Assembly: GCA_023105745.1 (NCBI GenBank) | Contig: JALGQZ010000011.1 | Location: forward strand, 44,112,698-44,176,697 | DNA from: Austropuccinia psidii | Taxonomy: Eukaryota > Basidiomycota > Pucciniomycetes > Pucciniales > Sphaerophragmiaceae | Length of the DNA stretch: 64,000 nt | Direction of reading: 5' to 3' | In this document: piece by piece, positions 29,495 through 60,269 of the stretch | Numbering within the stretch: the first letter of the stretch is position 1 | Layout: the number at the start of each line of letters is the position of its first letter | Translations under genes and position numbers: made by a program | The notes under the pieces: generated by a model | Seen by the model: the letters and a program-made list of their open reading frames with translations, nothing else | Databases searched by the model: none | Told to the model about the DNA's origin: nothing

Positions 29495-29496
29495 GA

Positions 29497-37095: not shown

Positions 37096-37114
37096 CCCAA
37101 TTTTGCAGACAGTG
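37096..37114 (-). repeat. CACTA-1 right terminal inverted repeat
   Basis: Reversed it reads CACTGTCTGCAAAATTGGG. It is followed by TGA. Confidence 0.9.
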
Positions 37115-37283
37115 TGAGAAATGAAGGTTTTCTTTTTTTAGTCCGGAATTTTAAGTGTTTCTGTAGCACTACTTTTGTTTTCAGTTCTCTACAAATCTTA
37201 AAAAATATTGGATATATCAAATTCTATTTTTTTTTATTCTTCTGGTAAGCTTGAAGCTGATAATAATGGTATGGAATACCACA
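37115..37283 (-). repeat. H right LTR, distal part
   Basis: It aligns with 11457-11627 (shared AGGTTTTC, CTGTAGCA, AAAAAATATTGGATATAT and GGTATGGAATACCACA). It ends the H insertion; E0 resumes after it. Confidence 0.9.
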
Positions 37284-38381: not shown

Positions 38382-38755
38382 TGTGAGGTGTATCTATGAA
38401 ACTGTTGATAATATTACTAGTAATCAACAGTACTATGACTGTTCTTATGAAATATAATAAAAAATTATTATGAGGAAAATTCAATAATTATTTAATTCAA
38501 TAATTATTTCTTTTACTTGTTTGAAACTACTAGTGATTGTAACAGTAAGCAGTAATTGTCTACTAGAATCAATTACAAGAAGTATTTAATAATGAAACTT
38601 CTTTTATTAAAATAATAAAATTATTTTTGTATAGAATTATCTTTTGAAAGAATAATTATAAATATAATTCTTGAAGAAAACAATTACTAGAGAAAAGATT
38701 TAAGTATTAACACAAAACACTCACTAATACTTCAAAGAACTTATTGAAGATAATA
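38382..38755 (-). repeat. E2-type LTR fragment interrupted by E3
   Basis: It begins TGTGAGGTGTATCTATGAAACTG and follows the E2 LTR (15952-16315) through ACTTATTGAAG, where the E3 LTR begins. No primer-site motif precedes it, so it looks like the 3' (left) LTR of another minus-strand element whose remainder would lie beyond E3, outside the window. Confidence 0.7.
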
Positions 38756-40160
38756 TGTCAGGCTGAGTCTATGATAAAGGTGTATAATGGTATTTACAGG
38801 CTTTAACTATGACTTTGAAATGGTGAAAATGATTCAAAAAGAGTTTGATTTATAATAATGAAAGTTTGTAATGATGATAAAAGGGCTTTACTATTGTATA
38901 ATAGTGGTGGTGAGCACTGCTGAAAGCCCTGGGTGCAGTCTTACCAGATGGGTTACTATAATAAGAGCTAAAATACTCAAGGTCAAAGTATAACCTGGCT
39001 ATTTTCCAAGAGTATAACTGGTTTTGAAATTTGTACTACATAGGAATAAAAGAGCAGGATGAGGAAACCTCTTCTGGCTGTGAAAAGGCCCCTTTTTATC
39101 CTAAAATGGGGTTAAAAGGCTTCTAGACCTTTCCAAATAGAGGAAGTGAATATTTTCCACTACCAAGTACTGGATTGTGGTTGTTACAGAGCCTTTATAG
39201 CCTTTATTGGGCGCAGATGTGGTTTTGAAACCACATCTGGCCGGTTTTCACCAATAAAGGGTGAATATTTTCATCTGGGGACCACATAGACGTATTCTGA
39301 CATGTATTACGTGTAGAATGCTGTACAGAACCTGCATGTGACCCCAGTATTGAATGAGCTATGAGGTATTGAAGTATAAACATTCTTCTTTGTCTGTTTG
39401 ACACCTCATCATCATGCTTATGGGATACCATCCCACTATAAGGCTGTATTGGCCAAACTGTGGGATTTTGACCTGTAAACAGCCATAGATTTGTTGGATT
39501 TTGAGATATCAACCTCAGAATTGGTTCAGTGTGTAGCCCTGGATGTTTTCTAAACAATGGTACATCATTTGATATGGAAAAGGTATGCCATGTCCAAGTT
39601 TTCTTATACACATTTAGGATTTATCCAAAAGCTGTATGGGGCTTGTTTGCTCCATATCTTTTGTTCTGGATGAGATATGGGGAAATGGATGGCAAAATCA
39701 GATAGCCCTGACTGTAATCTTCCCAAAAAGACCCCACTTTAGGTATCTCACACTAAAACTGTAGGAGTTAGATTAGAGGTGAATATTTTACTCACCCTTA
39801 CTTGACCTTATTTTGGTCATAACTTCTGTAATTCTGGTGCTAGCTTGGTTTGGATAGTAAAATTGAATAGCCCTGACTTAGAGCTTCATTTTGAATACTC
39901 ATTTGGTGGGGTTAAGCATCTTCCTCTGTGCTTCAGATGAGAGGTGAAAATTAAGGTTTATGCTCAGCAAAAACTTTGTTATTCTTTGTCCAATGATGAT
40001 GGGACTTGTAAATTTGGAAAGGGGTGAGTTTTTTCTTTTGTTTGATACCTTTAGAGTGGTTTTGGCTCAGCTCCATGTTTTGGTGGTATCTTGGCTATAC
40101 CATTGATTTATGGTATTTGGCTGTCATGTTTGTGCTCTGGTTTTGAGTCACAGGCTGACA
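38756..40160 (-). repeat. E3 left (3') LTR
   Basis: 1405 bp with ends TGTCAG ... CTGACA (perfect 6-bp inverted pair). It aligns with 63339-64000. It contains a perfect palindrome at 39214-39239, with 12-bp arms CAGATGTGGTTT / AAACCACATCTG around TG, which is also present in the right LTR. The 135-aa frame at 39204-39611 is not supported as a gene. Confidence 0.9.
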
Positions 40161-40180
40161 TACCCTCCTTTTAAAAAAGG
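40161..40180 (-). promoter_or_regulatory. E3 polypurine tract
   Basis: On the minus strand AAAAGGAGGGTA directly precedes the LTR start TGTCAGCC. Its place next to the pol stop matches E2. Confidence 0.65.
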
Positions 40181-40184
40181 GTCC

Positions 40185-43100
40185 TCACTGATGAGATTGT
40201 TCATACCTCCTGGAGTTCCTTAATATCCTTAGATGAAGGTTCCCATCTGGTATGGCATATTCTGCCAACCACTTGTCTTTGTCAGCTGTCTGGTTCTTGA
40301 ATCTGACTAAGTACTGTCTTTGATCCTTCCCATTAAGTCTGATCTTCCTAGCCTTGATGATTTTCTTCACAGGTCCAGGCAAATCCTCCACTTCTACTAT
40401 TTCTGGTGGGGTGGGGTTCTTCTTCCTGGAGGGGAATTTTCCCTCCACTGTCTGGAAGTATGGACTGACTAAACCCACTGCAACGACTGGGTGTTTCCTG
40501 GAAAATTCCTCTGTTAGTTTGACTTCCACTGCAATTTTCCCTATCAACTTAATGATAGTGAAGGGCGCTACAAATGAGTCTCTCATCTTCTTAGGTCCTT
40601 TGAGATTATTAAAGTTCAGTGTAGAAACTAATACTTGGTCCCCTTCCCTAGAGTCAGGTTCCATGTGTGATTTGTGCCACCTCTAATTATTATATTCTTT
40701 TGCCTCAGCTCTGCATTTGGCAGCTGTGTCACAATCCCTCTTCCACATTTCATGGAAATCTTTGGCTGTGGGGTGGATGGTCAGAAGATTTTTCTTCAAG
40801 TGATCCACAGGAAATAGGGGTATCCACCCTTTCTCTACCAGTGTGGGTGTTTTTCCTGTGGTAGAGTGCCAACTTGTATTATGAGCCAGCTGGACTTCTG
40901 GTAGAAGGGTAACCCAGTCATGGGTGTATCCTTCATGGTTGTTGTATCTCATTCCATAGGCACAGAATCTTCTAAGGATGTCCACCATTGTCTGAATCAT
41001 CCTTTCAGCTAATCCATCTGTTTGTGGATGGTAAGCTGTGGAAAATGCAAGCTTGGTGCCAAGAATGTCATGCAAGTTTGTCCAAAACTCAGATGTGAGC
41101 TTTGGGTCCCTATCACTAATAATTATTTTTGGGAGTCCACAGGTAGATATTATGTTATTCTGAAACAACATAGCAGTATCCATGGCTGTTTCCTCCTTGT
41201 GACATGGTAGGCACCTCATACTCTTGCTGAACCTATCAGCTATAATAAAGCAGGCATTGAAGTTCCCTTTGCCCCCCGGGACAAGTCCTGTGACCCAGTC
41301 CATGTTGATGGTTTCCCATGGGTGTTTGGGTTCTTCTATGTGTTGAAGTAACCCATAATTCTTCCCATGTTTCCTATTTGCCTTCCGGAATCTCTCACAA
41401 GTGTTGATGTATTCACTCAACTCTTGTTCCCATTTCGGCCACCAAGCTGTGCTTGCTACCCTTTCCTTGGTCCTGTCTTCACTCATGTGTCCCATATAGG
41501 GGCAGTCATGGCATTCTTGTAGGATCAAGGATATAGGGTCCCTGTCTATTATTGTGAGTGAACTAATGTGCGTTTCTCTATGGAAGAGCAGGCCATTTAT
41601 GAGGAAATACTTGTTTCCCTTATACTCCCTCAGCCAGGGTTCCTCTAAGTGGGATTCCAGCTATGGGCTCATGTACTTTTGTTGAAGGAGTTGCAAAAAT
41701 ATGCCACACCGTTTTTGTTTGGAATATGTCTTCATCACTTCATTGAAGAATTTATTATGCAGTTCTGAGGAGCTTATTCCCAATATGGGAGTTTCTGTTC
41801 CTTCTGAATCAGTGTTTCCACTGTCTGGGTTACCACGTTCTGGTTCCCATTCAAAAAATTTGAAGTTTTTCCTCCTATCTATTTCCATGGAATGGATAGG
41901 GATCTTGGCTGCTACTTCAGGTTCATAAGATGGATTGGTTTTGACATTATCCAGTGGCCATCTGCTGAGGCCATCCGCATTGGTATGACTTTTAACTTCT
42001 TTGTATATGATGGTGATGTTCCCTCTATACTCTTGGATGGCTATTTAACACCTTAGCATGTGTCCATTGGTAGTCTTCATGTTTATTAAAGACTTCAAGG
42101 CTGTGCAGTCTGTGTAGACTTCAAAGACTGCAACCTCCAAATAATAATGGAGTTTATCCAGAGCCCAGACTAAGCATAGACATTCAGTCTGGGTGGCCCC
42201 ATAACTGGCTTCTGAATCTTTCAGCTGCCTGGAGATGTAACATATTACTCCCTCTCTTGAATAACCATCTACAATTTGTCTCTGGTGAAGGGCTGCTCCC
42301 AAGCCTTGGCTACATGCTGCATTTAAGTATAGCTGGAATGGTAGTTCGAAGTCAGGCAAGGTGAGTTCATGTTTGATCCTCTAATATGCATCCCTTCTTT
42401 CCTCGGTAGTTTCAAAAAATACATCTTTTGAACATAACCTGTATAAACTACTAGCTATGTGGGCAAAAACTTTGATGTGGTTTCCCTAGTAGCTAACAAA
42501 CCCAACAGACTATTACCTCTCTTTGATGTTTCTTGGTACTGGTTTTTTCAGTACTTCTGCTACTTTGTTCTGGTCAATTGCCAGACAAAGACCTGAGAAT
42601 TTATGTCCTAGAGTTAGTAGCTCTTCTTGGCCAAAATTGCACTTTTTCAGTGATAATTTCAGATTTATGGGTATGTGTTGACTTAGAACTTTGTCTTTGT
42701 ATTGCATATGGTCTGCCCATGTCTGTGAGTATATAATGATGTCATCAATATATACTACCATACAGCCTTCCAATATTTATTCTTGAAATATTGTATCCAT
42801 CATCCTTTGGAAGTGAAATGGTGCATTCTTGATGCCAAATTCCATCCTGGTATACTCATATATGCCTATATGGCATATGATTCTGAGTAATTTCATGGAG
42901 TTTGTTTTAACTCAATTCTGGTGGAAACCTCTCATGCAATCCATCTTGGTTATGTATTTGGCTTTTGCCAGTTTGTCTAAGGCATGAGGTATCCTGGGTA
43001 TTGGATACCTGTCAGCTTTTGTGTAGTTATTCAGAGCTCTGAAATCTCCACACAGCCTAGACTTTCCATCATTCCAGGTGATAAGGAAAGGAGTAGTAAT

Positions 43101-43796
43101 TTACACTATCTCATTGTTTCCAATTGTTCTGATGACATCAATATCCAGGAGTTCATTGATATGTTTTTCAATTTCCTTCCTGGTTTCCAGACTTGCTGGG
43201 TAAGGAGGCCTCCTGAGCGTGGGTGTATAATGTGTTTCAACCTCCAGATATAGTTATATATCATGGCGTCTAATCTTGCCTAATGGTTCTTCACCAATGG
43301 CAAATGCTGGTCTATTCCTTCTCAGAATCTTCAGTAAGCTTAGTTTCTGTTTACTGGTGAGGGTAGTGCTAAAGTGTCCCTCTCTGAATTAATTCAGTAA
43401 TTCTTCAAGAGGGTCTTGGGCAGATATTTGGTATATATCAAGTCAAAATTTCTTTTCCTTTTTGGTACCAATGGTAATGTGCCTGTTTTTACCATTGTAA
43501 GTATCTATGCCATACATCCTCCGGTAATCTGTTCCCAGTAAGAAGCCTTGGATGTGGGCATCATCAAGCACAATAAACTCTGGGTTAAGTCTGATGTTAC
43601 ATTTACTATGGGGTATAACTATCTCTTTGATAATTGTCCCAATGGAAGTCATCTTCCCTGATGCACTCTTGAAGTTCTTTACCTTGGTGGGAAAGAGCTG
43701 GTTTGCCCAGTTTGGGAATTGGCTGTCTGGATAATTTCTGGCCACTATGGAGCAGTGTGCTCCACTGTCAATGATAAATTGATGTTGATAATCATC
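40185..43796 (-). pseudogene. E3 pol: protease, RT, RNase H, integrase, chromodomain-like tail
   Basis: Domains on the minus strand: protease FIIDSGAHCSIVARNY near 43770; RT with VVYIDDIIIYS near 42740; RNase H with [17 protein letters not shown] near 42320; integrase zinc site [10 protein letters not shown] ... [10 protein letters not shown] near 41410, where the last zinc Cys is Phe; DDE core [14 protein letters not shown] and [12 protein letters not shown]; tail RQYLVRFKN..DKWLAE near 40270. Stops and frame changes occur near 43440, 43160, 42770, 42400, 42045 and 41660, and at 40683 between integrase core and tail. The family differs from E2 in RT and protease sequence but has the same layout, including a chromodomain-like tail lacking the WKGF core of E1. 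Confidence 0.93.
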
Positions 43797-43839
43797 CACC
43801 AGGGAAAATCTTGCATCAATCGTTAGCAATTGACTTCAC
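43797..43839 (+). repeat. GT left terminal inverted repeat
   Basis: It starts CACCAGGGAAAATCTTG and ends GCAATTGACTTCAC. It pairs with 60224-60266 with seven mismatches, mostly transitions. From 43840 to 44039 are short CATCA / GTCA-rich repeats and no gene. Confidence 0.85.
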
Positions 43840-44039
43840 ATTGCACTGGGGTCAGTATAAAATATTGCTTTAGCTGCATTAGTGTCACTTTATAGTCACT
43901 GGATTTAGTGGGTCATGTCATGTCATCATCAAGACAACGTCAATCGTCACATCTGTCACATGAGAATGTCACTCAAAGCCCAAACCCATTTGAACACTAT
44001 TCGCAACATTCGGGTAATTTCACCTCATTGGCTTCTGCC

Positions 44040-44390
44040 TCCCCGACGCTTAGCATGCTTACGCGCACGCACCCCCCTCCAGATGAGACTCCAACACTGC
44101 CCCCTCATCTCTGTCCTCACCACTCCTTATGCCTTCACACCCCTTCCCCGACCATCCTTAGGCTTGTGTAGTGCCCTCCCAACATGCCTCTGACACAGCT
44201 TACCATCCTTACGCTTGCAGAGCGCCCTCCCCACTTATCATTATGCTTGTGTAGTGCCCTCCTGACATGCTCCCAACACCACTTATCCTTACACTTGTGC
44301 AGTGCCCTCCCGACATGCCTCCAACACAGCTTACCCTCCTTATGCTGGCGGAGTGCCCTCCCGGCATGCTCATAACACCACTTATCCTTA
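44040..44390. repeat. GC-richer tandem repeats in GT left arm
   Basis: Units contain CTTATCCTTACACTTGTG, AGTGCCCTCCCGACATGC and CCAACAC in four to five imperfect copies, in alternating subtypes. The 87- to 115-aa frames across it (both strands) are repeat-generated. From 44391 to 45122 I see no gene. Confidence 0.7.
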
Positions 44391-45122
44391 CCCTTCCATA
44401 TTAAATGCATAGTGTACAGTGGCTTGTTGGAGTACGGGATGAACGCAATCGCCAAAATATGCTGAGTGGCCTTCTCTGCCAACAGGACCTAAGGGGAAAT
44501 TGGTCAGTATATTCAAAATGTTGTGGTTAGGGTTTAAATCATGAGACTCACAAATTAAAACCTAATAATTGGACTATTTAAGACAAGAATTGTGTATCTT
44601 GTTTCCCCGACAAAACCATTTTATTTCATATCATTCAAATGGAACACTTTCCTTAGTCCTTACCTCATGAGCATTGAATAGTTCAAAAGTTGACTTTATT
44701 AGGTTTCTCACTAGTCAACTTTATTCAATGTCTCACAAGGAAGTGATTTCATTTGAATGAGATGAAATAATTTGCAACAAATCGCCTCCTTCAATTTCCC
44801 GACAGATTATATTTTGCAAATGCAATAAAATTTCAATAGAAGGTTCCAAGTCTGTTGATGCACAGGTTTATTTTGGTCAGCTTGTGGTTCTAAAATTTCT
44901 TTTTTCTAGAATATTCAATAACTCTTAGACTGCTTTAAATTGATATTTAACTTCTTCCAAACTCACCAAAATTCTCCAATATTACCTTGAAAAGAATCAA
45001 TTATTTTAAACTTATTTTACTTCCACCTTTTTTCTTCAATTTGGATCTTTTTATTCAAAAGTTTTCAAACAAGTTATCAATTAACTCGTCACCATCTATT
45101 TGCTAAATAAACTACCTCCGCT

Positions 45123-46949
45123 ATGGCCCAAACCCCGGGAAATTCAACTGAATTCAATGAACAACCAACTTTAGCCCCAGAGAGTGGAAGTAAAATCTCT
45201 GATATGGCCAGTAGTTTTGAATTAGGCATTGAAGTAGAGAGCCAGTCACATGAAGATAATCAAGATCCACCAGTTCTTCCAGAATGTGAGTATGCATCCA
45301 TCTTGAATATTTCAAATCTTTCAAAACCTGATATTGTGTCATAGCCTTTGTTTTTGGTCATCCTCAAGCTCTCAGAAACCAAATTTTAAAGATATGAGAA
45401 GGAAAAGACTGTTTAACCTTGTGCACCGACAGAAGATGATGGGCAAGATGATGTAATTTTCAGTGGGGAGGTGGAAATTATATCCAAGGAACAATTTGTC
45501 TCCAACATTGCTCAAACTATCCCAAGGCTCAAAAAAATTCAAAATGATAGTAAAATTTCTGATTATGTGCCTCAAAAGATTGCTGAAGCCATGAGCCTCC
45601 TCAAAATGGATTTGAATAGTAAGTCCATTACTAATTCAGAAAGAAATTGATAAAAATAGCTTCTTACAATATATGGGCAGGTGTGGAGGTGGGAGAATCT
45701 CTACCTGAAGGATCTCAAGTAGTAATTGGATTTCCAGGAAAAGGATGAGGAAAAAGACCAAATATAAATGCAACCAAAAAACGCCATACCTTTGAAGCTG
45801 CAAAGGATTCTCAGGATCAAGGTGATGAAATGATCAATTTTAAAGCTGACCATATTGATAATGAACCTCCAAATACTGAACCCCCCCATACTCAATGAAA
45901 CAATCCATGCTGAAAGCCCCCAATACTGAATAAAACAATCCATGATGAAGCCCCTCCCAACCCTCCTTGGAATATTAAAGCCTTTCAAGAAAGGGAGAAA
46001 ATTAAACATGATACAATGGGACGAGATATGACTGATATAATTCCTGACCCTGAACCCAAAGTGTCATCCTCTTCTAATTTTCAAGGAATATTTTTATCCC
46101 ACATGGAAGAGTTTGCAGGCATTTTGAATTATCATTCCAATATTACTCAACAATAATGGAAAAGGGGGCTTGATAATATCAATAGTATTCACAAAAATCA
46201 TTGGGACAATTTACCAACAAAGGATTCTCATACATTCCTGCCCATTGGTATTAAGGTGATCAGTAACAAAGAGCTTAAAATGTTGGGCTGGCTGGAGGAC
46301 CTTGATATGGCAGGTGAGTTTTATCTTTGTGCATGATACATGATTATTGGCTGTCAACTGGTGATATAAATTGCAATATACAGGGTTAGATTTTCTTAAG
46401 CCAACAGAAAGAGAAGCGTTTTTTGATCACAACATTTGGAATCTCAAATTGATGAAGGAATCAGCTAAACCTCCAGATAATCTCCCAAAATCTGAACACT
46501 CCTTCTTCAAAATGGTTCAGAGACTTCTTTACCCCGCCAATCCAGTTAAACATTTTTGGGCAAATGTTATGTTTGAATCCATTAGTTTAGTCTCATACGA
46601 TGTGATTGCACCCAAACCATATGTTGCACCAACATCAAATTCAACTGATCCTCTTGGACTCAAATGGGGAGCAGTTGAATACCTTGCCTCCTGCTTGAGT
46701 AAATCAAAGCAACGTGCAACCCAGCTCAGCATTGAATGTGGCGGGGATGACAGTGAGATGTCCACAAAGCCGCACAAGAAACTAGAGGATCTAATGGATA
46801 CAGTTATCCATTTGATGATTGCGTACAACATGGTACATGCACATACAAAGGTCAAAGTTAATGGCATCAAAGGCAAACTCACAAACTCAAAAAAAAATGA
46901 GGCCATCAAAGATCTTTTGATGTGTCACAAGAATCTCGGAATAAATTGA
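45123..46949 (+). pseudogene. unknown multi-exon gene of GT
   Basis: It starts at an ATG (MAQTPGNSTEFNE). The open pieces are 45123-45344, about 45430-45650, about 45690-45890, about 45955-46310 and 46371-46949. One clear intron lies near 46314-46381 (GTGAGTTTT ... ATATACAG). The last exon has KPTEREAFFDHNIWNLKLM, SYDVIAPKPYVAP and LMDTVIHLMIAYNMVHAHTKV. In-frame stops occur at 45342-45344, near 45745 and near 46155. The N-terminal part is acidic and the C-terminal part basic. I recognise no domain and no similarity to the accessory gene of CACTA-1. Its place at the left end of GT suggests a transposon-encoded partner protein. 46950-48082 holds no supported gene. Confidence 0.5.
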
Positions 46950-48082
46950 ATTTGCTATGGTACATTAGCGGCATTCTGTGTGGCGGGGGTTTGTAGTTTG
47001 ATGGTATTCTCAGATGACTGGAGAACAAGCTCAGTTAAAGGGGCTTTATCACTCATTGACATTTCCAAAAAACTTTCAGAGGGTAAAAATCTAGTGGAGC
47101 CGGTGTGGCTACGTACCAATTAGTATATATGTAATTGACTGAATGAAAGTTTCTTCTCATCAGAGTCTTTTAACCCCACTGTACCTCTTAGATTTGAATT
47201 TTCATGATGCTTAGTATTAGACTTTGGTGATGCCTGGGTGGCAAAGCGGGGTCTTGGTTCAAGTGATGAGGTCACATTGACTGTACCCAGGTCTGCTAAA
47301 CTTACAACCAGGATTGACGCGTTTTAGATTAGCTTTGTACCAGATAAATTGTAATTTAATTTTTCAAAGTCATTTATGAATTTATTAATAGTGAATACCT
47401 ATCCTACTACTGCCCGGATGTCACAGCATGAATACCAATAGTAATTGTACAGCGGCATGCCTCTGTACACCATTGAAAATACTCCTACAAGACGCAAGCT
47501 GAGTCAGGCAGTTGTGCCCGCAAGTAGCACATGCGGGGGCAATGTGGGCAGTCGCTTTTATCACTTCCCACCACCCCATAATAAGACAAATGTTCCTGTG
47601 TCTTTCAAGAGGACTAGGATAACTAGGGATCCGCAGCAGGGTGCATATTGCATTTGTGCGTGCTTGCGATATTCCACATGGTTGGATTGGAAAATGATTG
47701 CATGGGAACATCAATGTGTAAAATTGAATAATTAAATATCCACTGCAAATTTCAGGTTCAGGTATTTGAGATCGCGAATTCGCAAAGGTCAGGTGTGATC
47801 TTTCTTTTTAGCTGCAATTAAAAAAAGATTCATCGACCGCAATCAAATTTAGGTGATATTAATAAATCAGTAATCATTTGGTTTCATTTCATTTTCTGCT
47901 GCAAGCATGCCATTCACGAAAAAAGGAAAAGAGCGTAAAAGGGAACTCGCGGGAACGCATCGGGGTGAGGAAGGAAAGTGTGAGTTGCTTGCTTAATCTC
48001 AGCGTATATATATATGATTCCACATTTATGTGGCCCCACATTGGGCCCCATGGAAGAACATTGGCTTTAGTCGGTTCAGATT

Positions 48083-49288
48083 GTGCCAATGCCATGTGGG
48101 CTCCAACAGGGAAGTCAAAGGTGTGTGCCAAATAAAGCTCATTGGGCTTTGGGCACCATTCTGGACTCAAAACTCCTTAGCTTCAAATGGCAGGAAGCAG
48201 TATCTGATATCTTGTCTTCTTCAAAAAATAGTGATCCCTCAACCACACGGAATAGTGGGAGATCCCAAAAGACAAATAAGCGCAAAACAACCCAAATGAA
48301 TAGGTTGTTTTCCTCCTCTTGCGCAACAGCACAAATATCAATGCCAGTATCAGCAAATATGACCCCAAGTGAAATTTGGAGGGTTGTGGATGTCAATCAG
48401 ATCAAACGCATTCACTTTGGCCATGTGGCAATTTTCTCTTCAACCGGATTACTCATTGCCCTTGTTGAATTCTGACCATTCACAATAATGAGTGAAGTCA
48501 AGGTAAATCAATGGAATGAATTATCACAATTCTTATTTTGCAAAAAGAGATTCACCGACCCAATTGCAACAAATGGAGCATTACTGGAGGGACTTATGTT
48601 TGCAATTGGGTGGCACAAATGCAGCACAAAGAATGAACAATTTGGTCTGTATGGAAGTGTTGGGAAATTTGAAAACACAAAAGATGAATGGAAGAACCAA
48701 GGTGCCAATCTTAGCTTGGTGGGTTGCATTCTAGGTCAATCCTTACAATATGTTGGGGATAATTTATTTGAGAAGATTCAAAATTGCTACAGCTCATTGG
48801 GGGTTCCATCTTTTGATCAAGTCAACTATGAAGGCAATATTCCCGCAAATCAGGGTGCACGCGAGTTTTCTTCCGCACTCACTTTCACCATGAATGGATT
48901 CAAAAACTCACCTCATCTTGATAAGGATGCATCGCTGTATGCTTTGGGATGGTGGATTCAAGCTGATAAGTGGACCAGCCAAATTCAAAGAGATGCGTCA
49001 AAGCGGTGTACAGGGGGAAAATTGATTTTCCCAAATGAGCATTTTTGGATTGATCAATCTGATTGTCATTGGCCCATTCAGGTAGTGTGGGCCAGTAGTA
49101 CATTTTTTAACTATACTGATCCAGCACAGGACAATGAAAGCATGACACCAGTGGGTATGTCCGCACAATGCTCAAGGAGGTTGGCAGAAAAAAGGTGCCA
49201 AAAAAGCCATGGCTATTATGAGATTGGCAAGGGAGTGGGCTATCAAATAAGGGATGGTCATACAATCTCATGCCAATTCAAAGAATGA
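48083..49288 (+). pseudogene. TET/JBP-like 2OG-Fe(II) dioxygenase, one nonsense codon
   Basis: One frame of about 402 codons interrupted only by a TGA at 48473-48475 (LVEF*PFT; a C-to-T change of CGA would explain it). The N-terminal part is Ser/Lys-rich; a block IHFGHVAIFSS precedes the core. The core has SPHLDKDASLYALGWW (HxD iron site, H at 48914-48916), GGKLIFPNEHFWID (jelly-roll strand) and IQVVWASSTFFNYTDP, where Asn at 49109-49111 occupies the place I expect for the distal iron His. GMSAQCSRRL then follows. Rust genes of this type are annotated as Tet-like 2OG-Fe(II) oxygenases. TET/JBP enzymes oxidise methylated or plain thymine/cytosine bases in DNA and occur with fungal transposons. 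Start uncertain; upstream exons may exist. The assignment comes from motifs and memory. Confidence 0.7.
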
Positions 49289-49499
49289 GGAGATTTGCAT
49301 GTGTGTTGGAATTGCAGCGTGATGGCTCAATAATGGTGGGGTAAGGCAGAGGACAATATACACCAGGATTGGATGGTTTTGAGTGCGGGAGATAGGGTGG
49401 CTCACATTAAAAAGGGGTGAAGTGGATTATGTACGGTGGCATGCCATCATACATATGTCCTGGCTTGTTGCTCTTGTCCAGGATGCTGATGCCTCACAC

Positions 49500-50560
49500 G
49501 CGAATCCTTATTCTTGTGCAGGTTCCAACAATGCTAAAAGTTCCTTACGCCTGTTCGGGCTGCCCATGATTCACACCCAAATCATTACACTTGTACGAGC
49601 TCCTGACAATTCAAAAAACTCGCTATGGCCGTGCAGGCTTTGACGCCTCCTACGGAATCCCTTATGTTCTGCAGGTTCCCAAAAATTTAACAGTTTTCTT
49701 ACACCAGTGCAGGCATCCAATAGTTGACACACAAATCCTGACGCTTGTGCAGGTTCCTGACAATGCTGAAAATTTCTTGCGCCTGTGCAGGCTCCCAACA
49801 ATTCATACACCAATCCTTACGCTTGTGAAGGTTCCCCACAATGGTAAAAATTTATTACGCCTGTGCAGGCTTCGGAAAATTCACACGCCAATACTTACGC
49901 TTGTGAAGGTTCACGACAATGCTGAAAATTTCTTACGCCTGTGCAGGCTCCCAACAATTCACACGCCAACCCTTAGGCTTGTGAAGGTTCCCAACAATGC
50001 TAAAAACTCCTTATGCCTGTGCAGGCTTCCAACAATTCACACGCCAATCCTTACGCTTGTGAAGGTTCCCAAAAATGCTGAAAATTTCTTATGCTTGTGC
50101 AGGCTCCCAACGATTCACATGACAATCCTTACGCCTGTGAAGGCTCCCGACCATTCACATGCCAATCCTTACGCTTTTGCAGGCTCCCAAAAATTCACAT
50201 GCCAATCCTTACACCTGTGCAGGTTCCCAAAAATGCTAAAAATTCCTTATGCCTGTACAGGCTTCTTACAATTCACATGCCAATCCTTATGCTTGTGAAG
50301 GTTGCCAACAATTCTGACAATTTCTTACCCCTGTGCAGGCTCCCAACAACTCACACGCCAATCCTTATGCTTGTGAAGGTTCCCAACAATGCTAAAAATT
50401 CCTTACGCCTGTGCAGGCTTCCGACAATTCACACGCCAATGCTTACGCTTGTGAAGGTTCCCGACAATTCTGAAAATTCCTTACGCCTGTGCAGGCTTCC
50501 AACAATTCACATGCCAATCCTTACGCTTGTGAAGGTTCCCAACAGTTTAAACAATTCAAT
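49500..50560. repeat. 78-bp minisatellite, open over 235 codons
   Basis: About 13 units of 78 bp, each made of two related halves: CAGGCTTCCAACAATTCACA.. and AAGGTTCCCAACAATGCT... Because 78 is 26 codons, one plus frame (49591-50298) stays open with the repeat LPTIHTPILTLVKVP..LRLC, and a second (50091-50570) continues. No start context or signal sequence supports translation. Similar CTTACGCTTGTG cores link it to the array at 44040-44390. 50561-50965 holds no supported gene. Confidence 0.85.
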
Positions 50561-50965
50561 ACATGACTAAGATTAATAGCTTGTGACCATAGGAAAGGCA
50601 ATGTCTCATGAATCTGGAGTGGATTTCTCACATGCAGGAACCTCCAGCTTTTTTACAGTTAAGATTTGATATGGCTCTAAACCATGGAAGAAGAAAATAT
50701 AGGAGACAGTAACAGTGACTATTGGCACATTTTTGGCAAAAGAGGTTCACACAAACAAATACTCACTCAAACCTTTGGTGGGGCACTTACAAAAATTATT
50801 CTCACACAATCAGGGATTTTCTCTAAGGAGGAAATAAATAATTTTTACGTGAACAAAGAATGTAATAGAAATTGAACATAACAATGATTGAATACAAATA
50901 ATTTATTTAAAAGAAAGTATTACAAAAGATAAAAAGTGGAAATAATGAGATTTGTTTTTAAATTT

Positions 50966-52247
50966 TTATTTTTCTAGGAATTTGGGGACTATCCCGATGA
51001 TGTCCTCCTTTGGATAAGCCTCCAGTGCCTGGGCAAGGAGGGAGTTTAGTTCCTCCCGGAATTCCCAGTGCATCTCATTTCAATTAGTTGCATCCACAAA
51101 AGGAATCATGTGGAGCAAGCGGCAATGCTCCAACAAGATTCGGTTGATCAATTTTTGCACAATGGCTCAAGGAATCATCAAAGTCGGTCATAAGTTGGTA
51201 AATTCCTGGCGAGTGTCATCGTGGTAAATGAGAGGGGCTTTGCACCAGGGGGAGGAGGCGTTGGGGTTCTCGGGGGAACTGGCAGGGATCTCTGGGGAGG
51301 GGGGGATCAAACGGGCATATCGTCAATGATAATTATTGAGAGTGTAGTGGCGGGACGAGCTGGAGATGGTCAAAAAAAACGTGAGGAAAAGTTGATAGGA
51401 GTGAAGAAAGAGAAGTGGTGACTTACCAAAAGGTTCCTCCGTGGATTGCATAGGAGCCACCTCAGGTTCTGGCTCAAGAGTTGTAACGTCCTCAGGTGGT
51501 TGGGAGGATGGACTCGGGCCAGGAATAGGTGGCTGTTTGGTTTGGGAGGGTTCTAAAAAAGGAGTAAGAGTCAGTTAACTCAAATCAAAAGTGAAAGTGA
51601 AAATGAAATGAAACTTTGGCTGCTTACTGCAGAATAATTCCTCTGCCCATTGGGTGCCACCCGGGCCTGGAGTGGGTTGCCGCGGGGTTTGCTCGTGAGG
51701 CAAACTAGGAATAGGAGAGTCTTGTTGGGGGGGGATTTGGAGGGTTTTGTTCTATGAGTAATTGAAAAAAGTCAGTATTTTTGCGTTAAGAGAAAGAAAA
51801 CTTACTTTGGTGTTTGAATCCCATCAGTGACAAGACATGGTGACAATTGGCCCAAGCTCGAATGTCCTCTTGCCATTGCCATCCTTCATCGGCAAGATTA
51901 TCACTTCACTCAGGTCGAGGAGTGAAGTGACCATTGGATGGTGGCCTAGGAGGGGGGGTGGACAAATCAATACTTGAGGGAACAGGGCTAATCATCTGGA
52001 ATTGTTCCCGTTGACCTGCTTGGGGTCCCGGTGTCCATTTGCGCTTGGATATGGTTTCATCATTGCTGACCACAAAGGAGTCCTCAAAAGGGTGTCTTGG
52101 GCGAGAACTCCTCTGGCCACGTGGTTGGAAGGGGCAGACAACAAACAAACATTTCTTGTGTGCTTGTCGGCAAGCATCACAAGCGTTGGTCGTCATTGAG
52201 GAACAAATGCAGGGGATACCCTGCTTGGTGCATAAAGTGCACAACAT
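50966..52247 (-). pseudogene. antisense gene of GT with Zn2Cys6-like cluster
   Basis: Four exons on the minus strand: 52247-51806, 51751-51628, 51552-51427 and 51359-50966, with GTAAG/AG introns of 54-75 nt. Exon 1 has cysteines spaced C-x2-C-x6-C-x9-C-x2-C-x6-C (starting MLCTLCTKQGIPC, then ACDACRQAHKKC), the same pattern as the E1 antisense gene and as fungal Zn(II)2Cys6 factors. Pro/Ser-rich linkers follow. The last exon ends with a helical stretch FREELNSLLAQALEAY and KFLEK before the TAA at 50966-50968. Breaks: TGA at 51906-51908 in exon 1, a run of eight C near 51730 that shifts the frame, and TGA near 51310. ATTTTAG just before the first ATG may be an upstream splice acceptor. Function unknown; DNA binding inferred. 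Confidence 0.6.
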
Positions 52248-53735
52248 CTAAAATCAAAACAATTGAGGTTAGTAACTGAATAGAAAGTGAAAAATCAAGA
52301 AAGAAAATGAAGAAATACGATGAATTATATAAATTTAAAATGGATACAAAATAAAGACGCTCTAGTCGGAAGTTTTTAAAAGTCTGGAAGAGAAGAAAAA
52401 TAAGTATTAATATTGGAACATAATGTAGACAGAAGTTTAAAATGGAGGTAACACACAAGGTAGATAGATGTGGGGTTCTGAAAGTATGAGCAGGAAAAAC
52501 AAACAGGAAAAAGGAAGGGGAGTGGGTTTAGTGGAGTGCGAAAGAAAAGAGTGGAAAGGCAGGAAGACCAAGGGGAATACAGACAAGAAGGACAACAGCG
52601 GGTGAGAAAGAAAGTGAAGGGCTTGTCAGGTGAAGGTGGTCTTCTATACCATGGTGAAGCTGAGATGATCTCAGCAGTTGCAGAACCCACAAAAGTCTCA
52701 GCTTCAAGGCATGTGGGCAAAATTGAAGCTCAGTCTCAGCGAATGCTGCAACTGAGAAGGGAAATGCTAGTGTGAGGCAGAAGAACAATGGGGTTCTGGA
52801 TGAGTATTGCAATTGATTGAATTGTCACGCTCAGTCAAATCCCGTTTGTTTCCTTAAATAGCCACCCGATCACCCAGGAGGGTGGTTGTGAGGCCCTTGT
52901 TGAATGTGCATGGTGGGTGCAATGCACAAGTGCCCCATGCAGAAATGCATGTGGTTCATTTGGTCACAAGTGACCGCGGAAGGATTACCAGCCATATGGC
53001 CTGGTGATAGTGTTTGAACAAAGGGGGGCTGTAAGACAAGTGAACACAGTGTGAGCTTGGCTCGACCCATTGCTCAGGTTTGCTTTTGGGTCATAATTGA
53101 AATGCTCAGTGGCTGAACATTTAAATTGCACAGTAATTGAACTATTGATATAACAATATCAAATGCACCATTCTGAGCAATTGCTAGATCATTTTTGTAA
53201 GCACAGAATCTGAGCATTTGGCACAGCATCGGATGACATTTCACACGCTTTGGTGAAATGCTCCAAACTGAGCCTTCCAATGAGCTATTGCAAAAATGGT
53301 CCTGACCATGGCTTTGCTGAGCACTTCCACACAGTGCTTTTGACCATGAATTGCTAAGCTTGCGTGTGCAAATAGGGTGAAACACAATTCTGAGCATGTG
53401 GCACATGAGGTATGTATATGCAAACAATCAGAAAGTAGATACCCATTGGCTATATGCATGCAGGCTGAATTAGTATTACACCTTCCTAATCTGTACAGCT
53501 GACACTGTAGTACGCAGTACACCTTTGTAAATGTATGCTGCCGAGCAGAGCAAAAGCTGTTCAAAAATGTAACATGAAATCAGGTCAAGCCATCAAGTCA
53601 TATATCTCAACTGCATCCCTTTGATGCACCTTGTTGGAGAGCTCTGCCTAACTACTGCACAGATGCGGGTGTAATCCAAGTTAATGAAAGTGGGTCATGA
53701 TGGGATGACTTATTTTTTGGGTCATAAAAAAACAG
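52248..53735. other. GT interval, no gene supported
   Basis: It contains a minus-strand frame (52812-52528) with a hydrophobic, signal-peptide-like start (FFCLTLAFPFSVAAFA) but no ATG, and a TATTTAAG about 45 bp upstream. It could be a first exon of the neighbouring antisense gene or chance. From 53080 to 53735 nothing is recognisable. Confidence 0.35.
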
Positions 53736-55881
53736 TGGATTCACTCCGGTGTGGGATGAAATAAGGCAGTACTTTGAGGGGGAAATTATTGGTAAGTATG
53801 TTTTGAATTTCAGAATTGTCCAACAACTATGGGTGCTAAGGTGTATTAGCTGCCCCTCTAAATAATACTGAATAGTCAGCCTACGGAGAATCACAAAAGA
53901 AAATAAGATTTGTGGCTTTAACAGATAGAGAATACTTATCAGCAGTCTCTAAATCAGACCTATAAATGACACTACAGTAAAACTCTGATCTAAGATTTGT
54001 GATAAAATAAACACTAGATTTTTTTTAATTTATTTTAATAAAAGTGATGATAATATATATATATATGTTTTGGGTTTCTGTTATTTTAATAAAACTAATA
54101 AGAATATTTTTTTTTGTTTTTTATTTTTGAATAAGAATGATAGGAATATATATTTTTTATTGTTTTAGGTTGATTATAATGATTTTTTTGATATGAGTAC
54201 TAATAATAAGACTACTGGATTTGATTCTTTTAGGATTTTTTTTAATACTGAGTTTATATCACTACTACTTCTCTTTGTTAATAACACTAAGCTTTTGAGC
54301 AAGGCTAATAAGCTTTAACTATGGTTATAATACTATTCTTCACTAATACAAAGCTACTGAGAAAGGCTACTGAGCTTTTACTATGGTTATACTACTATTC
54401 TTCACTAATACTAAGCTACTGAGCAAGGCTACTGAGCTTTTCACTACTAAAACACTACTACTATTCTAGATATCCTGCTAGTTCAGGGATGGTGGTGATC
54501 CTGGATAGTGGGAACTTGTTCCATGATGATGGGAAAAATGAGGGAGAAAGGACCTCTATTTATAGCTTTTGGGCCTCCATAGAGCTTCTAAAAAGAGGGT
54601 ACTTAGAAAAAATCATAGTTGAGAGGTTTTAGGTGGTGAGACGTGTAGTTTTGGTGTAGCAGCATGTTTGCTGAGAGAATTATGCTGGTGGTGCTTTTTC
54701 TTATCAAAATCATGTGATGTATTTGAGATAATTTTGCTGGTGAGACTTCCTTTTTTCCAGAGTCATGTGAAGTCATTGAGATAATATGGCTGGTGATGTT
54801 TTCTTTAAGGTGGGGAAAGTATTTTTTGTTTCTATTTTTACATATGTTATGAGAGAATTATGCTGGTGGTGCTTTTTCTTATCAAAATCATGTGATGTAT
54901 TTGAGATAATTTGGCTGGTGAGATTATCTTTCTGCAAAGAAAGTGGAGAAAATACCGCTCCTGACAATTGAACTTTCTTCTAGTCATATGATATATATGA
55001 GAAAATTATGCTGGTGTTTCTGTTTCTTATCAAAATCATGTGATGTATTTGAGATAATTTGGCTGGTGAGATTTTCTTTTTGCCAAGAAAGCGGAGAAAA
55101 TACACCTCCTGACAATTGAGCTTTCTTCTAGTCATATGATATATATGAGAAAATTATGCTGGTGTTTCTGTTTCTTATCAAAATCATGTGATGTATTTGA
55201 GATAATTTGGCTGGTGAGATTTCCTTTTTGCCAAGAAAGTGGAGAAAATATAGCTCCTGAAAATTGAACTTTCTTCTAGTCATATGATATATATGAGAGA
55301 ATTATGCTGGTGTTTCTATTTCTTATCAAAATCATGTGATGTATTTGAGATAATTTAGCTGGTGGGTTTTTCTTTTTTGGTGACTTTGTTACGTGTTTTC
55401 TGAGAGAATTATGCTGGTGTTTCTTTTTTAGTATTGTATCATTTCATATGGAGATTGCATCATTTCTATCAAGCTTGATGCATGTCATTATTACTAAGCA
55501 AAAATTTGTCATTATTACTAAGCAAAAATTTGTTCTTGGAAAATATATTGTAATTTTATGCATAGCCTTGAGGTATTTCTTCTTTCAATTGAATCAAGCT
55601 GGGGAAAATCAAGCTCTGATGCTGTGGTGCATCTTCCTTCACCTTCCTTTATGATTAACTGCTTTTAATTGCATAATTTGCTATTGATGATGCAATAAGG
55701 TGGATAAATACTTTGATACTATACTGTTTTGATAAGATCTTGAGGCTGTGTATTGTATATTTCTTTTTGAAATTTGTAGTTGTAATGTTTAAATATGTTT
55801 TTTGGAATTTGTTTTATTATCATTTTTTTCTTTTTTTTATTGGTAAGCTTGAAACTGGTACCAATGGTATGGAATACCACA
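53736..55881 (-). repeat. H2 left LTR
   Basis: The first 920 bp follow the H LTR. From 54665 to 55430 the middle is replaced by a subfamily-specific array. The end GGTATGGAATACCACA again matches H. It is a distinct LTR subfamily. Confidence 0.8.
54665..55430. repeat. tandem array of about 148-bp units in H2 LTR
   Basis: Units contain GAGAAAATTATGCTGGTG, TTATCAAAATCATGTGATG, GAGATAATTTGGCTGGTGAG and GGAGAAAATACAGCTCCTGA. About five units are present, and about three and a half in the partner at 57490-58012. The 61- to 89-aa frames over them are not genes. 55431-55800 is unique A+T-rich LTR sequence. Confidence 0.8.
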
Positions 55882-55936
55882 TCCCCCTCTCCATTTAATG
55901 CTGTCCCCAGAATTCCAGTTGAAAAGCTTGCCAATA

Positions 55937-56390
55937 TCAATCATATCCATTTTGATCAATTTCTTCACCCTGTAATATTGACTCTTCATCTTCAATTTCT
56001 TCACTGCTTTCATTTTCTGACTCTGAACTTGTTTGAACTCTCTTTCCTTTGGTATAAAACCTCTTGATGTGACTTGCTGCAAATTTTCTTGTAAGCTTAG
56101 TGCCATCCAATTCTTCAAGCTCATAAGGTCCATTATTAATTTGATTTATGACTCTATAAGGTACATTCCAATGGTTGAAGAGTGAACCCAACTGTGACTC
56201 AAGTGGTTAATTATAAACTAATACCAAGTCTACTGGTTCAAGTGGATTTCTCAATCTATGTGCCATCTTTTTGTCCAAATATTTAACTGATTTGTGTCTT
56301 GAGTCTCTTAATGTCTCTGCTGCTGCTAATCTTGTTTCTTATTTTGCCACAGTCTGTATGTTTCTTGCTTCCAATAGTTCTTCTAGTTGG
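55937..56390 (-). pseudogene. H2 integrase C-terminal tail
   Basis: Same module as 11701-12139: NGPYELEELDGTKLTRK, FAASHIKRFY and SESENESSEEIEDEESI. It has a frame break near 56190 (the equivalent of GDLVLAY lies in another phase) and a stop near 56345. It is an isolated fragment without catalytic core. Confidence 0.75.
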
Positions 56391-56534
56391 TATTTTGTTT
56401 TGATTGAATATTATTCATTAATTTCACCTTGAAGTCTTCATTATTTTATTATTCACCTTGGGTGTTAATATTGATATCTTCGTTTTTTTATCTTCTTGAT
56501 TCCTTGATTTTACTTGCATATTCAATCAACTGGT

Positions 56535-56748
56535 GTGCTATCCCTGTAGTTTGAAGTCATACAAGGACTAATTTTGGCCGTCTTGGAATCACCCTTTAGC
56601 TTAAAGTCATACAAGGACTGATTTTAGCCTTCAGGTTGCTACCCTGTAGTTTAAAGTCATACAAAGACTAATTTTTTTCCTTCAGGTTGCTACCCTGTAG
56701 TTTAAAGTCATACAAGGACTACTTTTAGCCTTCAGGTTGCTACCCTGT
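56535..56748. repeat. H2 minisatellite, about five 50-bp units
   Basis: Units share CCCTGTAGTTTAAAGTCATA with the array at 12262-12765 and lie at the same distance from the integrase tail. The last unit is cut at the right LTR piece. Confidence 0.8.
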
Positions 56749-58012
56749 AAGACTTATCAGCAGTCTCTACATCAAACCTATTAATAACACTACAGTAAAA
56801 CTCTGATCTAAAATTTCTGATAAAATGAACACTAGATTTTTTTATTTTATTTTAATAAAAGTGATGATAATATATATATATATATATATGTTTTGGGTTT
56901 CTGTTATTTTAATAAAACTAATAAGAATATTTTTTTTGTTTTTTCTTTTTGAATAAGAATGATAGGAATATATATTTTTTATAGTTTTAGGTTGATTATA
57001 ATGATTTTTTTGATATGAGTACTAATAATAAGACCACTGGATTTGATTCTTTTAGGTTTTTTTAATACTGAGTTTATATCACTACTACTTCTCTTTGTTA
57101 ATAACACTAAGCTTTTGAGCAAGGCTAATACGCTTTAACTATGGTTATAATACTATTCTTCACTAATAGAAAGCTACTGCGCAAGGCTACTGAGCTTTTA
57201 CTATGGTTATACTACTATTCTTCACTAATACTAAGCTACTGAGGAAGGCTACTGAGCTTTTCACTACTAAAACACTACTACTATTCGAGATATCCTTCTA
57301 GTTCAGGGATGGTGGTGATCCTGGATAGTGGGAACTTGCTCCATGATGATGGGAAAAATGAGGGAGAAAGGACCTCTATTTATAGCTTTTGGGCCTCCAT
57401 AGAGCTTCCAAAAAGAGGGTACTTAGAAAAAATCAAAGTTGAGAGGTTTTAGCTGGTGAGACGTGTAGTTTTGGTGTAGCAGCATGTTTGCTGAGAGAAT
57501 TATGCTGGTGGTGCTTTTTCTTATCAAAATCATGTGATGTATTTGAGATAATTTTGCTGGTGAGACTTCCTTTTTATCAGAGTCATGTGAAGTCATTGAG
57601 ATAATATGGCTGGTGATGTTTTCTTTAAGGTGGGTAAAGTATTTTTTGTTTCTATTTTTACATATGTTATGAGAGAGTTATGCTGGGGGTGCTTTTTCTT
57701 ATCAAAATCATGTGATGTATTTGAGATAATTTGGCTGGTGAGATTTTCTTTTTTCCAAGAAAGTGGAGAAAATACAGCTCCTGACAATTGAACTTTCTTC
57801 TAGTCATATGATATATATGAGAAAATTATGCTGGTGTTTCTGTTTCTTATCAAAATCATGTGATGTATTTGAGATAATTTCGCTGGTGAGATTTTCTTTT
57901 TGCCAAGAAAGTGGAGAAAATACAGCTCCTGACAATTGAATTTTCTTCCAGTCATATGATATATATGAGAAAGTTATGCTGGTGTTTCTATTTCTTATCA
58001 AAATCATGTGAT
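56749..58012 (-). repeat. H2 right LTR piece, truncated
   Basis: It aligns with 53936-55340 of the left LTR, including the 148-bp array with fewer units. It lacks about 200 bp at one end and about 540 bp at the other. Confidence 0.8.
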
Positions 58013-59226
58013 GGATATCACTGCACTGAGTGATCACCAGATCAAGGGTGAGGCTCTGGAGCATCTCCAACAAATCATATCTGAGACAATAATTCCCTCA
58101 TCATGGATAAGAGTACCTTGCAACATGGGTTCCCCCTCTCATGGTAGCTTAAAAGCCACTGAATGGGCTCTCTTATATAAGGTCTATATTCCATTTTTAA
58201 TGCTCAGTCAACAGATGTAATTAGATGCACACCAATCAGCCAACACTCAAAGAAGAATGGGTCAGTCAGAAGAACTTGCAAATGAACTAACCAAGAATAC
58301 ATTCCATTTGATTAGTGCTATCAAAATTGCCACAATTTGGACTGTTTCAATAGATGATGCGACTGCATTTGCTGAACATTGGAAAAAATTCCGCCTTTTC
58401 AATCAACACCTACTCCAAAACAGAAAAGTAATCCAAATCATCATTTTTCTGATCATATTCCCAAACTCTTGCAACATTGGGGCCCAGCACAAGCTTCAGC
58501 CACATGGGGTTATGAGCGCTTGATTGGAGTATTTGCAAAGATGCCAACAAATAACAAAATATGTATTTCAATTAATAAGATCAATATATTCACATTAATT
58601 ATAGACCTGAAATGAATAAGACTAACTTTTTTCAACTCTGAATAGATTATATAGATAGAACCTTACTTCAACATATCTGTTGATTTTCCAACCTTTCCGT
58701 TCTCCTGAAATCCCCATCCGTGCCATGTTAAATAAAAGAGCTTTTTGAATAACAGCCACCTTCCCTGTTCAGTTACCATAAATATAACAAACCATCCCGC
58801 AATGACCAACAAAATTATGATTGCCTGGTTGAGTACTTACAGAATTTTCATGAAACAAGGGAAATAGTTGATTGGATCAGCTTAGACACTACCATGCAAT
58901 CCTTAAGTCATCCCACTTCAAGGATTGTCTCACCTTGGTATTTTTCAGCTTCAAACATTAATATTGGGAACAATATATTTTCAACTGAATCCAAAAATTT
59001 CAGAAACAGTGTGATATGTTTTCTGAGGGGCAACTAACAAGGATTTGATATTATTAATAGCATTTTTAAAGTCTCTGAGCCATCTAGCATACTGAACAAT
59101 AACTTTCTGATCTTAAAAACTTTGAAGATTGATGTGAATTTCTTACCAGATTGGCCGCATCTCAATATTTGTAAAGCTGTTGGTCTTGATGATGGACACT
59201 TTATTATATCTGAAGAAAAAATATAA
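58013..59226 (+). pseudogene. CACTA transposase C-terminal part of GT
   Basis: The reading starts right at the H2 edge (DITALSDHQIKGEALEHLQQ), continues to MGSPSHGSLKATEWALLYK and, after a stop at 58217-58219 and a frame change near 58430, to PNHHFSDHIPKLLQHWGP and TWGYERLIGVFAKMPTNNK. These align with the CACTA-1 transposase (NQNGKLKASEWHSLFAIHLP, PNHHYSLHIPEQLKWWGP and FPGERLVGLL). Further pieces reach HFIISEEKI near 59226. The N-terminal catalytic part is not found left of H2, so it was lost or displaced. This is the evidence that GT is a CACTA-type element. Confidence 0.75.
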
Positions 59227-60223
59227 GGTAACTGTGGATTGTATGATAACAAAGCTCTGTCATGTGGACTGCTTGTAATGATACAGCCGTTATTTCATGA
59301 TATTTAGTCTAAAAAAATGCAAATCTCTCAGATTCATTAGCAATTTTGCTAGTGAAATAACTGCCTCAAAATTTAGTGACAGAGACATGCCATTGTGACA
59401 AGCAAAGCCCATTATTTCACATTGCCACAAAGAACTTACTATTTTGACATTGGGTACAGTGTGAATAAGACAAGTTCAATGATCAAATGACCCACACACT
59501 CACCTTTCACAGCATCCAAAATTTCTAACTGCGCCATCATCATGTTGGAAGGGGAATTGGCCCTTGCGCACCCACACATGCCAATGCACACGCAAGCGCA
59601 CCCGCACACACCAATGCACACGCAAGTGCACCTGCACCCGCCAAGAGTGGTTTCATGTGTCACCCACAAATGGTCAATGCCACCTGACATTAGGCCCTCA
59701 CATGTATTGCCTTTGTGTGCATGTGTAACCCATGCACCCACTGCATTGTGCATCGGGCTCTAACCAAGTCACCCCTCCTGTTGAGCTAGCTGATTCATGG
59801 CTTCACAACATTAGGACAACACATCATTTGGCCATGGTGTGCCTGTCACACACACACACCCGCACCCGCAGTATTGTGCGGCACGCTCTACCAGTGTCAT
59901 CTGCAAAACAACAATCCCGCTCAGGCGGAGTCCTTTCATGGATGACCTGGTGAAGTCAAACCCCCCACCTACATCAAGACTGGCTGAAGGACCTCTTTGA
60001 TGTGTGTTTGTGCAAACAGGCGGGTCTTGTGTAATTTTTACCAACCATCGGATGTTTGCGGGATGATCAGGTGGTGAGGAATCTGAGTTGAAGGCACAGG
60101 GGAACCAATATTGGTGGATGTCATAGGATTTGGTTCAAGACAAGAGTGTGACGTGTGCTTGAAGTTTGCTTGATTTTTGCTTGATGTGAGCTCAGCTTTT
60201 ATCCTGCTTGAAGTTTGCTTGAC
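59227..60223. other. GT right arm, low-complexity, no gene supported
   Basis: 59560-59650 and 59840-59870 are CACGCA/CACCCGCA-rich low-complexity DNA giving spurious frames on both strands. At 60150-60225 the phrase GCTTGAAGTTTGCTTGA is repeated and may serve as a subterminal transposase site. Confidence 0.5.
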
Positions 60224-60266
60224 GTGAAGTCAATTGCCGACAATTGACACAAGATTCGCCCTGGTG
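60224..60266 (-). repeat. GT right terminal inverted repeat
   Basis: Reversed it starts CACCAGGGCGAATCTTG and ends GCAATTGACTTCAC. It pairs with 43797-43839. Confidence 0.85.
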
Positions 60267-60269
60267 GTC

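Follow-up and report, generated by a model that had tools for sequence, protein, structure and literature searches.

What is a gene for a TET/JBP-type DNA dioxygenase doing between the ends of a CACTA-type transposon, and does it travel there alone? The question is raised by a 64,000-nucleotide stretch of the Austropuccinia psidii genome (contig JALGQZ010000011.1, positions 44,112,698 to 44,176,697), called the window here, in which an initial annotation placed such a gene, together with a zinc-cluster gene, within an element at 43797 to 60266. This interval is a single insertion of the CACTA/EnSpm type. It is a decayed copy that carries an internal deletion, and it quite likely belongs to a large A. 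psidii family that was amplified recently; the new part seems to be a recurrent SNF2 ATPase gene that travels with the dioxygenase in this abundant, recently active-looking family.

Ends, insertion site and class of the element

The terminal inverted repeats (TIRs) of about 43 bp that were annotated initially hold up. The left arm (43797 to 43839, + strand), which starts CACCAGGG, and the right arm (60224 to 60266, − strand), which ends CCCTGGTG, are inverted repeats of each other with identity at 36 of 43 positions, compared with a best inverted match of 31/43 for 300 random 43-mers from the window. By eye, all seven mismatches fall in four dinucleotides that are CG in one arm or read CA in one arm versus TG in the other; one of the seven is a transversion, the other six are transitions. 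In a sister copy on contig C8 that looks young, the left arm has CG at all four of these dinucleotides. Since the mismatches sit in CG or CA/TG and are mostly transitions, they fit arms that were originally alike and have since lost methylated CpG sites.

The 3-bp flanks of the window copy, ATC at 43794 to 43796 and GTC at 60267 to 60269, are identical at two of three bases, so that the flank duplication initially annotated is imperfect at this site; it is exact in four sister copies, namely c7, c8, and c10 (TTA, ATT, and AAA among them) and the copy on contig C8 (TCT). When the flanks were joined by script with one copy of the 3 bp, a single open frame resulted that spans a Gypsy aspartic protease motif, in agreement with the annotated restoration of a protease frame upon removal of the insertion. 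The downstream part of the interrupted frame lies at 43443 to 43793 (− strand), and the upstream part lies to the right of 60269.

Several features place the element within CACTA/EnSpm (CMC), a class for which 3-bp target site duplications are a criterion. The TIRs begin and end CAC...GTG in the window copy, c7, c8, and c10 and CACC..GGTG in the contig-C8 copy. Subterminal repeats consist of copies of a 14-base motif by the left end and of GCTTGA by the right end. PF02992 (Tnp2) was above the cut-off in three of four transposase proteins of the family (P0245, P0284, and P0292, but not P0264; best E = 1.6e-12), and PF18759 (Plavaka transposase) gave matches below the cut-off in P0264, P0284, and P0292. 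Rust elements of such a Plavaka-like type are classed as EnSpm in PMC12730594. In one copy, CNFC and DIMHNLILGILKDH were noticed by eye and might correspond to the C(2)C and H(3-4)H motifs, respectively, of the CMC clade. The transposase C terminus reported in the initial annotation is present at 58011 to 59304 (+ strand) and is of the Tnp2, CACTA/EnSpm type; the portion corresponding to roughly residues 1 to 294 of P0245 is missing.

The element does not fit the KDZ group, as no KDZ transposase family was found among the four transposase proteins scanned (E ≤ 0.01) and the duplications are 3 bp rather than 7 to 8 bp long. Duplications of 7 to 8 bp are reported for Kyakuja and Dileera (PMC12730594).

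Gene order in sister copies and genome-wide linkage

Sister copies were sought in the assembly (1,015,390,075 bases in 84 contigs) with both TIRs. The left TIR gave 1441 unscored first-look candidates and the right TIR gave 2568, and the best 40 were scored in each case. From the 39 other left-end matches that were scored, ten of the best eleven were read over 20 kb each, and three of these were extended. Gene O, of unknown protein family, was present in nine of the ten copies, the dioxygenase gene in eight, the zinc-cluster gene in five, and the transposase gene in four. The initial annotation had allowed that copies with the same ends might lack the dioxygenase. This was not so: the gene stood at the same place in 8/10 copies, and in the other two (c4 and c9) the family sequence ended before the dioxygenase position was reached. 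Copies bounded at both ends were c7 (22,070 bp), c8 (20,002 bp), c10 (19,030 bp), and, as a fourth, the contig-C8 copy (20,635 bp by coordinates, with only its two end parts fetched); c3 had no right end within 22.5 kb.

The gene order of full copies is O, dioxygenase, repeat array, Zn2Cys6-like gene (other strand), SNF2, G5 (other strand), and Tnp2-type transposase, and the same ends, 3-bp duplications, and gene order recur within the family. The series of dioxygenase, zinc-cluster, and transposase genes is thus repeated between the same ends, and the base oxidase does travel with a CACTA-type element, as first proposed; what the initial annotation missed was the broken state of the window copy and its lost SNF2 gene.

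All four of the left-end copies that reach the transposase (c3, c7, c8, and c10) have the SNF2 ATPase gene, flanked by the zinc-cluster gene on one side and the transposase gene on the other. Its two pieces match PF00176 (E = 3.2e-28 and 1.8e-9), c8 contains GLGKT (Walker A) and DEAQ (DEAx box), and DRLHCIGQ, as helicase C motif VI, was seen by eye downstream in another frame. The names of its homologues (the best 60 of 62, and 24 of 24) included helicase-like protein, SNF2-family, STH1, RAD5, and others; none was named DNMT5, to whose SNF2 part in basidiomycetes (PMC13297926) a link had been considered. G5, on the opposite strand, occupies the same interval in these four copies, and it had no Pfam or NCBIfam match (L024:3895-4803, − strand). 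Among right-end copies, which were read over 10 kb each, SNF2, G5, and the transposase were found together in three of five.

Linkage between genes was assessed across the genome from the best-scored places of TET (121 of 6674 first-look candidates), SNF2 (110 of 8322), and the transposase (86 of 8873), counting pairs within 25 kb against a null of random placement (2000 trials). TET and SNF2 formed nine same-strand pairs and no opposite-strand pair (null mean 0.64, largest 4), with SNF2 located 6.5 to 7.5 kb downstream of TET in all nine. For SNF2 and the transposase there were 19 same-strand pairs and one opposite-strand pair (null mean 0.47, largest 4). All but one of the 19 were spaced at 6486-6487 or 7059-7061, values that differ only by strand-dependent match numbering. 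Since these spacings are nearly constant, the copies are near identical in layout and probably recent. The linkage of TET to the transposase was weak (three same-strand pairs at 13.3 to 13.7 kb and no opposite-strand pair; null mean 0.51, largest 4). Locus-tag neighbors in the proteome of A. psidii MF-1, taken from the best 120 of 324 TET homologues, 107/107 zinc-cluster homologues, and the best 120 of 155 homologues of O or transposase, gave weak evidence that is superseded by the genome data: pairs on contigs of equal length, a property shared by different short contigs, numbered four for TET and O, two for TET and the zinc-cluster gene, one for TET and the transposase, two for the zinc-cluster gene and O, one for the transposase and O, and zero for the zinc-cluster gene and the transposase. 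As a separate observation, dozens of transposase genes have a near-equal score and an 836-residue open frame, a sign of a recent burst.

Accessory genes and a possible escape from silencing

The dioxygenase gene (48296 to 49285, + strand) is of the Tet-like 2OG-Fe(II) type that was annotated. Its 48476 to 49285 stretch matched PF20515 with E = 9.8e-38 in a Pfam scan, as the sole Pfam family at E ≤ 1, and P0001 matched PF20515 with E = 1.1e-46. In the window copy, a stop codon (48473 to 48475) cuts off the N-terminal part, which a string test found in 60 of the best 120 of 324 homologues, all from A. psidii MF-1. The iron ligands H143 and D145 are kept, and the third-ligand position, 208, is occupied by Asn; the same 120 homologues have His there in 101 cases, a gap in 8, and another residue in 11 (Asn in four), and the HxD...H iron triad is complete in 89. 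Given the stop codon and the Asn at the third iron ligand, the dioxygenase of the window copy is probably inactive. The predicted activity of the family enzyme is oxidation of 5-methylcytosine (5mC) in DNA. The dioxygenase had no match by sequence or profile among solved structures, and a pattern scan for it in viral contigs found none.

The small zinc-cluster protein is encoded on the − strand at 51861 to 52247, where similarity to P0121 continues past the stop of an open frame (51909 to 52247; 113 amino acids [aa]) to 51861. By eye, its Cys spacing is C-X2-C-X6-C-X9-C-X2-C-X6-C, to be compared with the Zn2Cys6 pattern CX2CX6CX5-12CX2CX6-8C. The annotated Zn2Cys6-like character is suggested by this spacing and by the name Zn(2)-C6 given in UniRef to several of its homologues (107 at E ≤ 0.001, all from MF-1), while Pfam gave no match. 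Gene O, absent from the initial annotation, was located by tblastn with P0228 (439 aa) at about 45938 to 47324 (+ strand). It is interrupted by stops, with five in the second exon region of the window copy versus one in c8. In two predicted MF-1 proteins, O is continuous into TET, and the listed homologues of O or the transposase (the best 120 of 155) all belong to MF-1.

Two separate repeat arrays, the left subterminal tandem repeats (44155 to 44395, + strand), also found in sister copies, and a 78-bp tandem repeat array (49465 to 50623, + strand), also found in c3, c7, c8, and c10, are connected by the 14-base motif TCCTTACGCTTGTG. Matches to the motif number 23 in the window, every one of them within the element and on one strand (0.26 expected by chance), and none near the right end of the element; it recurs 13 times in c7, 19 times in c8, and 8 times in c10. 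Because the motif was derived from the repeats, these counts restate the arrays, and they show sharing and conservation, not binding. The 78-bp repeats at 49741 to 50544 are also up to 87% identical over 23 bases to zinc-cluster coding sequence at 52164 to 52186 on the opposite strand.

We think it fairly probable that these accessory genes form a mobile anti-silencing kit that counters host silencing. The Zn2Cys6-like protein (or O) would bind the shared 14-base motif and thereby aim the kit, the SNF2 motor would open packed chromatin at the motif, and the dioxygenase would oxidize 5mC on the element. Element genes could thereby be expressed, and the element could spread for as long as a copy had not yet been disabled by methylation and loss of CpG. 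A more far-reaching version, which we regard as possible and put forward tentatively, is that guide, SNF2 motor, and 5mC oxidase constitute a complete self-directed un-silencing machine that has kept an active lineage rich in CpG, a lineage that multiplied widely amid methylated, CpG-stripped elements, the wide multiplication being judged from unscored first-look candidates running to thousands. With an oxidase, an SNF2 protein, and a probable DNA-binding guide present in a fungus that has published single-molecule methylation data, self-erasure of silencing marks by a transposon is directly testable, and the pairing could reveal a way in which such elements evade silencing.

Known systems resemble this proposal in part. 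TnpA of the maize Spm/En element, itself a CACTA transposon, binds subterminal repeats and promotes demethylation, and thus shares with our proposal a CACTA product, subterminal repeats, and demethylation; we know of no dioxygenase or SNF2 gene in maize Spm. Work by Iyer from 2014 is said to have found TET/JBP genes on KDZ transposons of mushrooms, which are like the present family in this respect and differ in their transposase. VANDAL elements belong to another transposon superfamily than CACTA. In Arabidopsis, the VANC proteins of VANDAL elements remove silencing via tandem repeat binding (PMC10398659), an element-encoded anti-silencing activity aimed at the tandem repeats of the element, as proposed here; they differ in host and in being sequence-specific binders, with no base-oxidizing enzyme named in the abstract of PMC10398659. 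Kinetoplastid JBP2 likewise combines a TET/JBP-type dioxygenase with a SWI2/SNF2 domain, which is required for de novo base J synthesis (PMC10057400). Whereas JBP2 unites both activities in a single host protein that acts on thymine, the present family has two separate genes within a transposon and could be a split, mobile parallel to it.

The closest precedent comes from the rusts. Kojima 2025 (PMC12730594, December 2025) describes TET-carrying EnSpm families of Puccinia striiformis whose ends are CAC..GTG and whose target duplications are 3 bp long. It also reports related EnSpm families from A. psidii (in wording that does not state outright that they carry TET) and shows transposon TET genes of Austropuccinia in four clusters; escape from methylation is already proposed there, and the function of transposon TET genes is given as without experimental validation so far. 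The TET-carrying EnSpm elements of Pucciniales have in common with the present family the CAC..GTG ends, the 3-bp duplication, an EnSpm/Plavaka-like transposase, and the TET/JBP-type dioxygenase. The partnership itself, which the initial annotation took to be distinct and new, has therefore been published before. Beyond the main text of that paper, the family described here offers the SNF2 gene, the Zn2Cys6-like gene, O, G5, the repeat arrays, the copy survey, and the linkage; the words SNF2 and zinc are absent from that main text, and the supplement sequences may already contain such genes. Among the papers listed in literature searches, none described a pairing of SNF2 with a TET-like dioxygenase in a transposon in its title or abstract opening.

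An anti-silencing role would suit the state of A. psidii transposable elements, which carry 5mCpG and lose CpG by deamination with age (PMC12774611 and PMC8063080). In line with a lineage kept rich in CpG, the CpG observed/expected ratio was 0.74 in the left part and 0.51 in the right part of the contig-C8 copy, the youngest-looking copy measured, versus 0.01 and 0.27 in its flanks, a comparison confounded by age and base composition. For c8, c7, the window copy, and c10 the ratios were 0.50, 0.45, 0.33, and 0.27, respectively, with values of 0.15 and 0.12 for the window flanks and 0.11 for a foreign insert in the window copy. Since younger elements keep more CpG anyway, these values do not show protection, and since copies do lose CpG, any protection is incomplete. 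Further observations weigh against an anti-silencing role or limit the evidence for it. Right-end copy d3 had the transposase and a G5-adjacent part with no SNF2 in the 10 kb read, and d5 had none of SNF2, G5, and the transposase in its 10 kb. The TET matches used for linkage may include genes of other transposon families. Structure models of the dioxygenase and O, made from close paralogues, were too poor (mean pLDDT of 36 and 49), and the activity, binding, and expression of the kit proteins are predictions. Mean dN/dS ratios among the fetched copies were below 1 but not strongly so (TET, 0.58 [36 pairs]; O, 0.49; Zn2Cys6-like gene, 0.51; G5, 0.63; SNF2 pieces, 0.66 and 0.95; transposase pieces, 0.68 and 0.91), and these are descriptive means that include decayed copies.

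Ratios only moderately below 1 would also suit accessory genes that are passengers of a gene-collecting CACTA element, spreading with the transposase lineage and doing nothing for the element, an explanation that we consider unlikely. Plant CACTA elements frequently capture host genes, which lends it some plausibility. TET genes have moreover been described as passing passively from one transposon family to another (PMC12730594). The passenger explanation is harder to reconcile with the layout of the TET, SNF2, and transposase genes, whose order and spacing repeat in many copies, and with the mostly stop-free matched stretches at the scored places (100/121 for TET, 109/110 for SNF2, and 85/86 for the transposase), although these fractions are not genome-wide rates, since the scored matches are the best of large lists and favor intact copies. 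Less probable again is a role in transposition, in which the dioxygenase and SNF2 protein would act on the ends of the element itself, marking or remodeling them to let the transposase distinguish them from host DNA; the several CpG sites in the inverted repeat and the motif array close to the left end would suit such a role, and the lack of the 14-base motif near the right end would not. That the dioxygenase segment arrived as a nested insertion of its own, brought between CACTA ends by chance, is extremely improbable and was rejected: TET genes do occur in many rust transposon superfamilies (PMC12730594), but alignments of the window with c3, c7, c8, and c10 cross O, TET, and the zinc-cluster gene without a boundary at TET, the position of which is the same in 8/10 copies.

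Decay of the window copy and neighboring features

Compared with c8, the window aligns at 43797 to 53751 and at about 58012 to 60266, small insertions aside, and c8 element positions 9426 to 18065 (~8.6 kb) are missing. In their place is foreign, mostly long terminal repeat (LTR)-like sequence at 53752 to 58011, with LTR-like direct repeats at 53931 to 55196 and 56749 to 58016 that are 96% alike and have a short stretch between them. No target duplication was found for this insert, and the frame between its repeats had no Pfam match. Because the missing part includes the transposase N terminus, the window copy is a deleted form. The initially annotated size of 16.5 kb is accurate for the interval itself (16,470 bp), and it is the size of a copy that has lost ~8.6 kb and gained ~4.3 kb of foreign sequence.

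Elsewhere in the window, a second and different Tnp2/Plavaka-like transposase lies at 33669 to 36284 (− strand), with matches at 34401 to 35807 to PF02992 (E = 1.3e-7) and PF18759 (E = 2.5e-6); of the 59 inverted repeats in 29000 to 41000, the 25 longest include no comparable pair of ends for it. Another small protein, at 1823 to 2302 (− strand), has Cys groups that resemble a Zn2Cys6 cluster by eye and had no Pfam match. Inside the element, a 34-nucleotide inverted repeat occurs within 44621 to 44770, with arms that are 82% complementary and separated by 82 nucleotides. A 266-bp insertion relative to c8 and c10, at 59595 to 59860, is rich in CACACGC repeats, and an alignment overlap of ~8 bases nearby could be its target duplication. 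Finally, a 185-bp stretch at 44827 to 45011 is absent in c2, c7, and c8, and an extra stretch of similar length is found at that place in c3, c9, and c10, so that it represents a presence/absence difference within the family.

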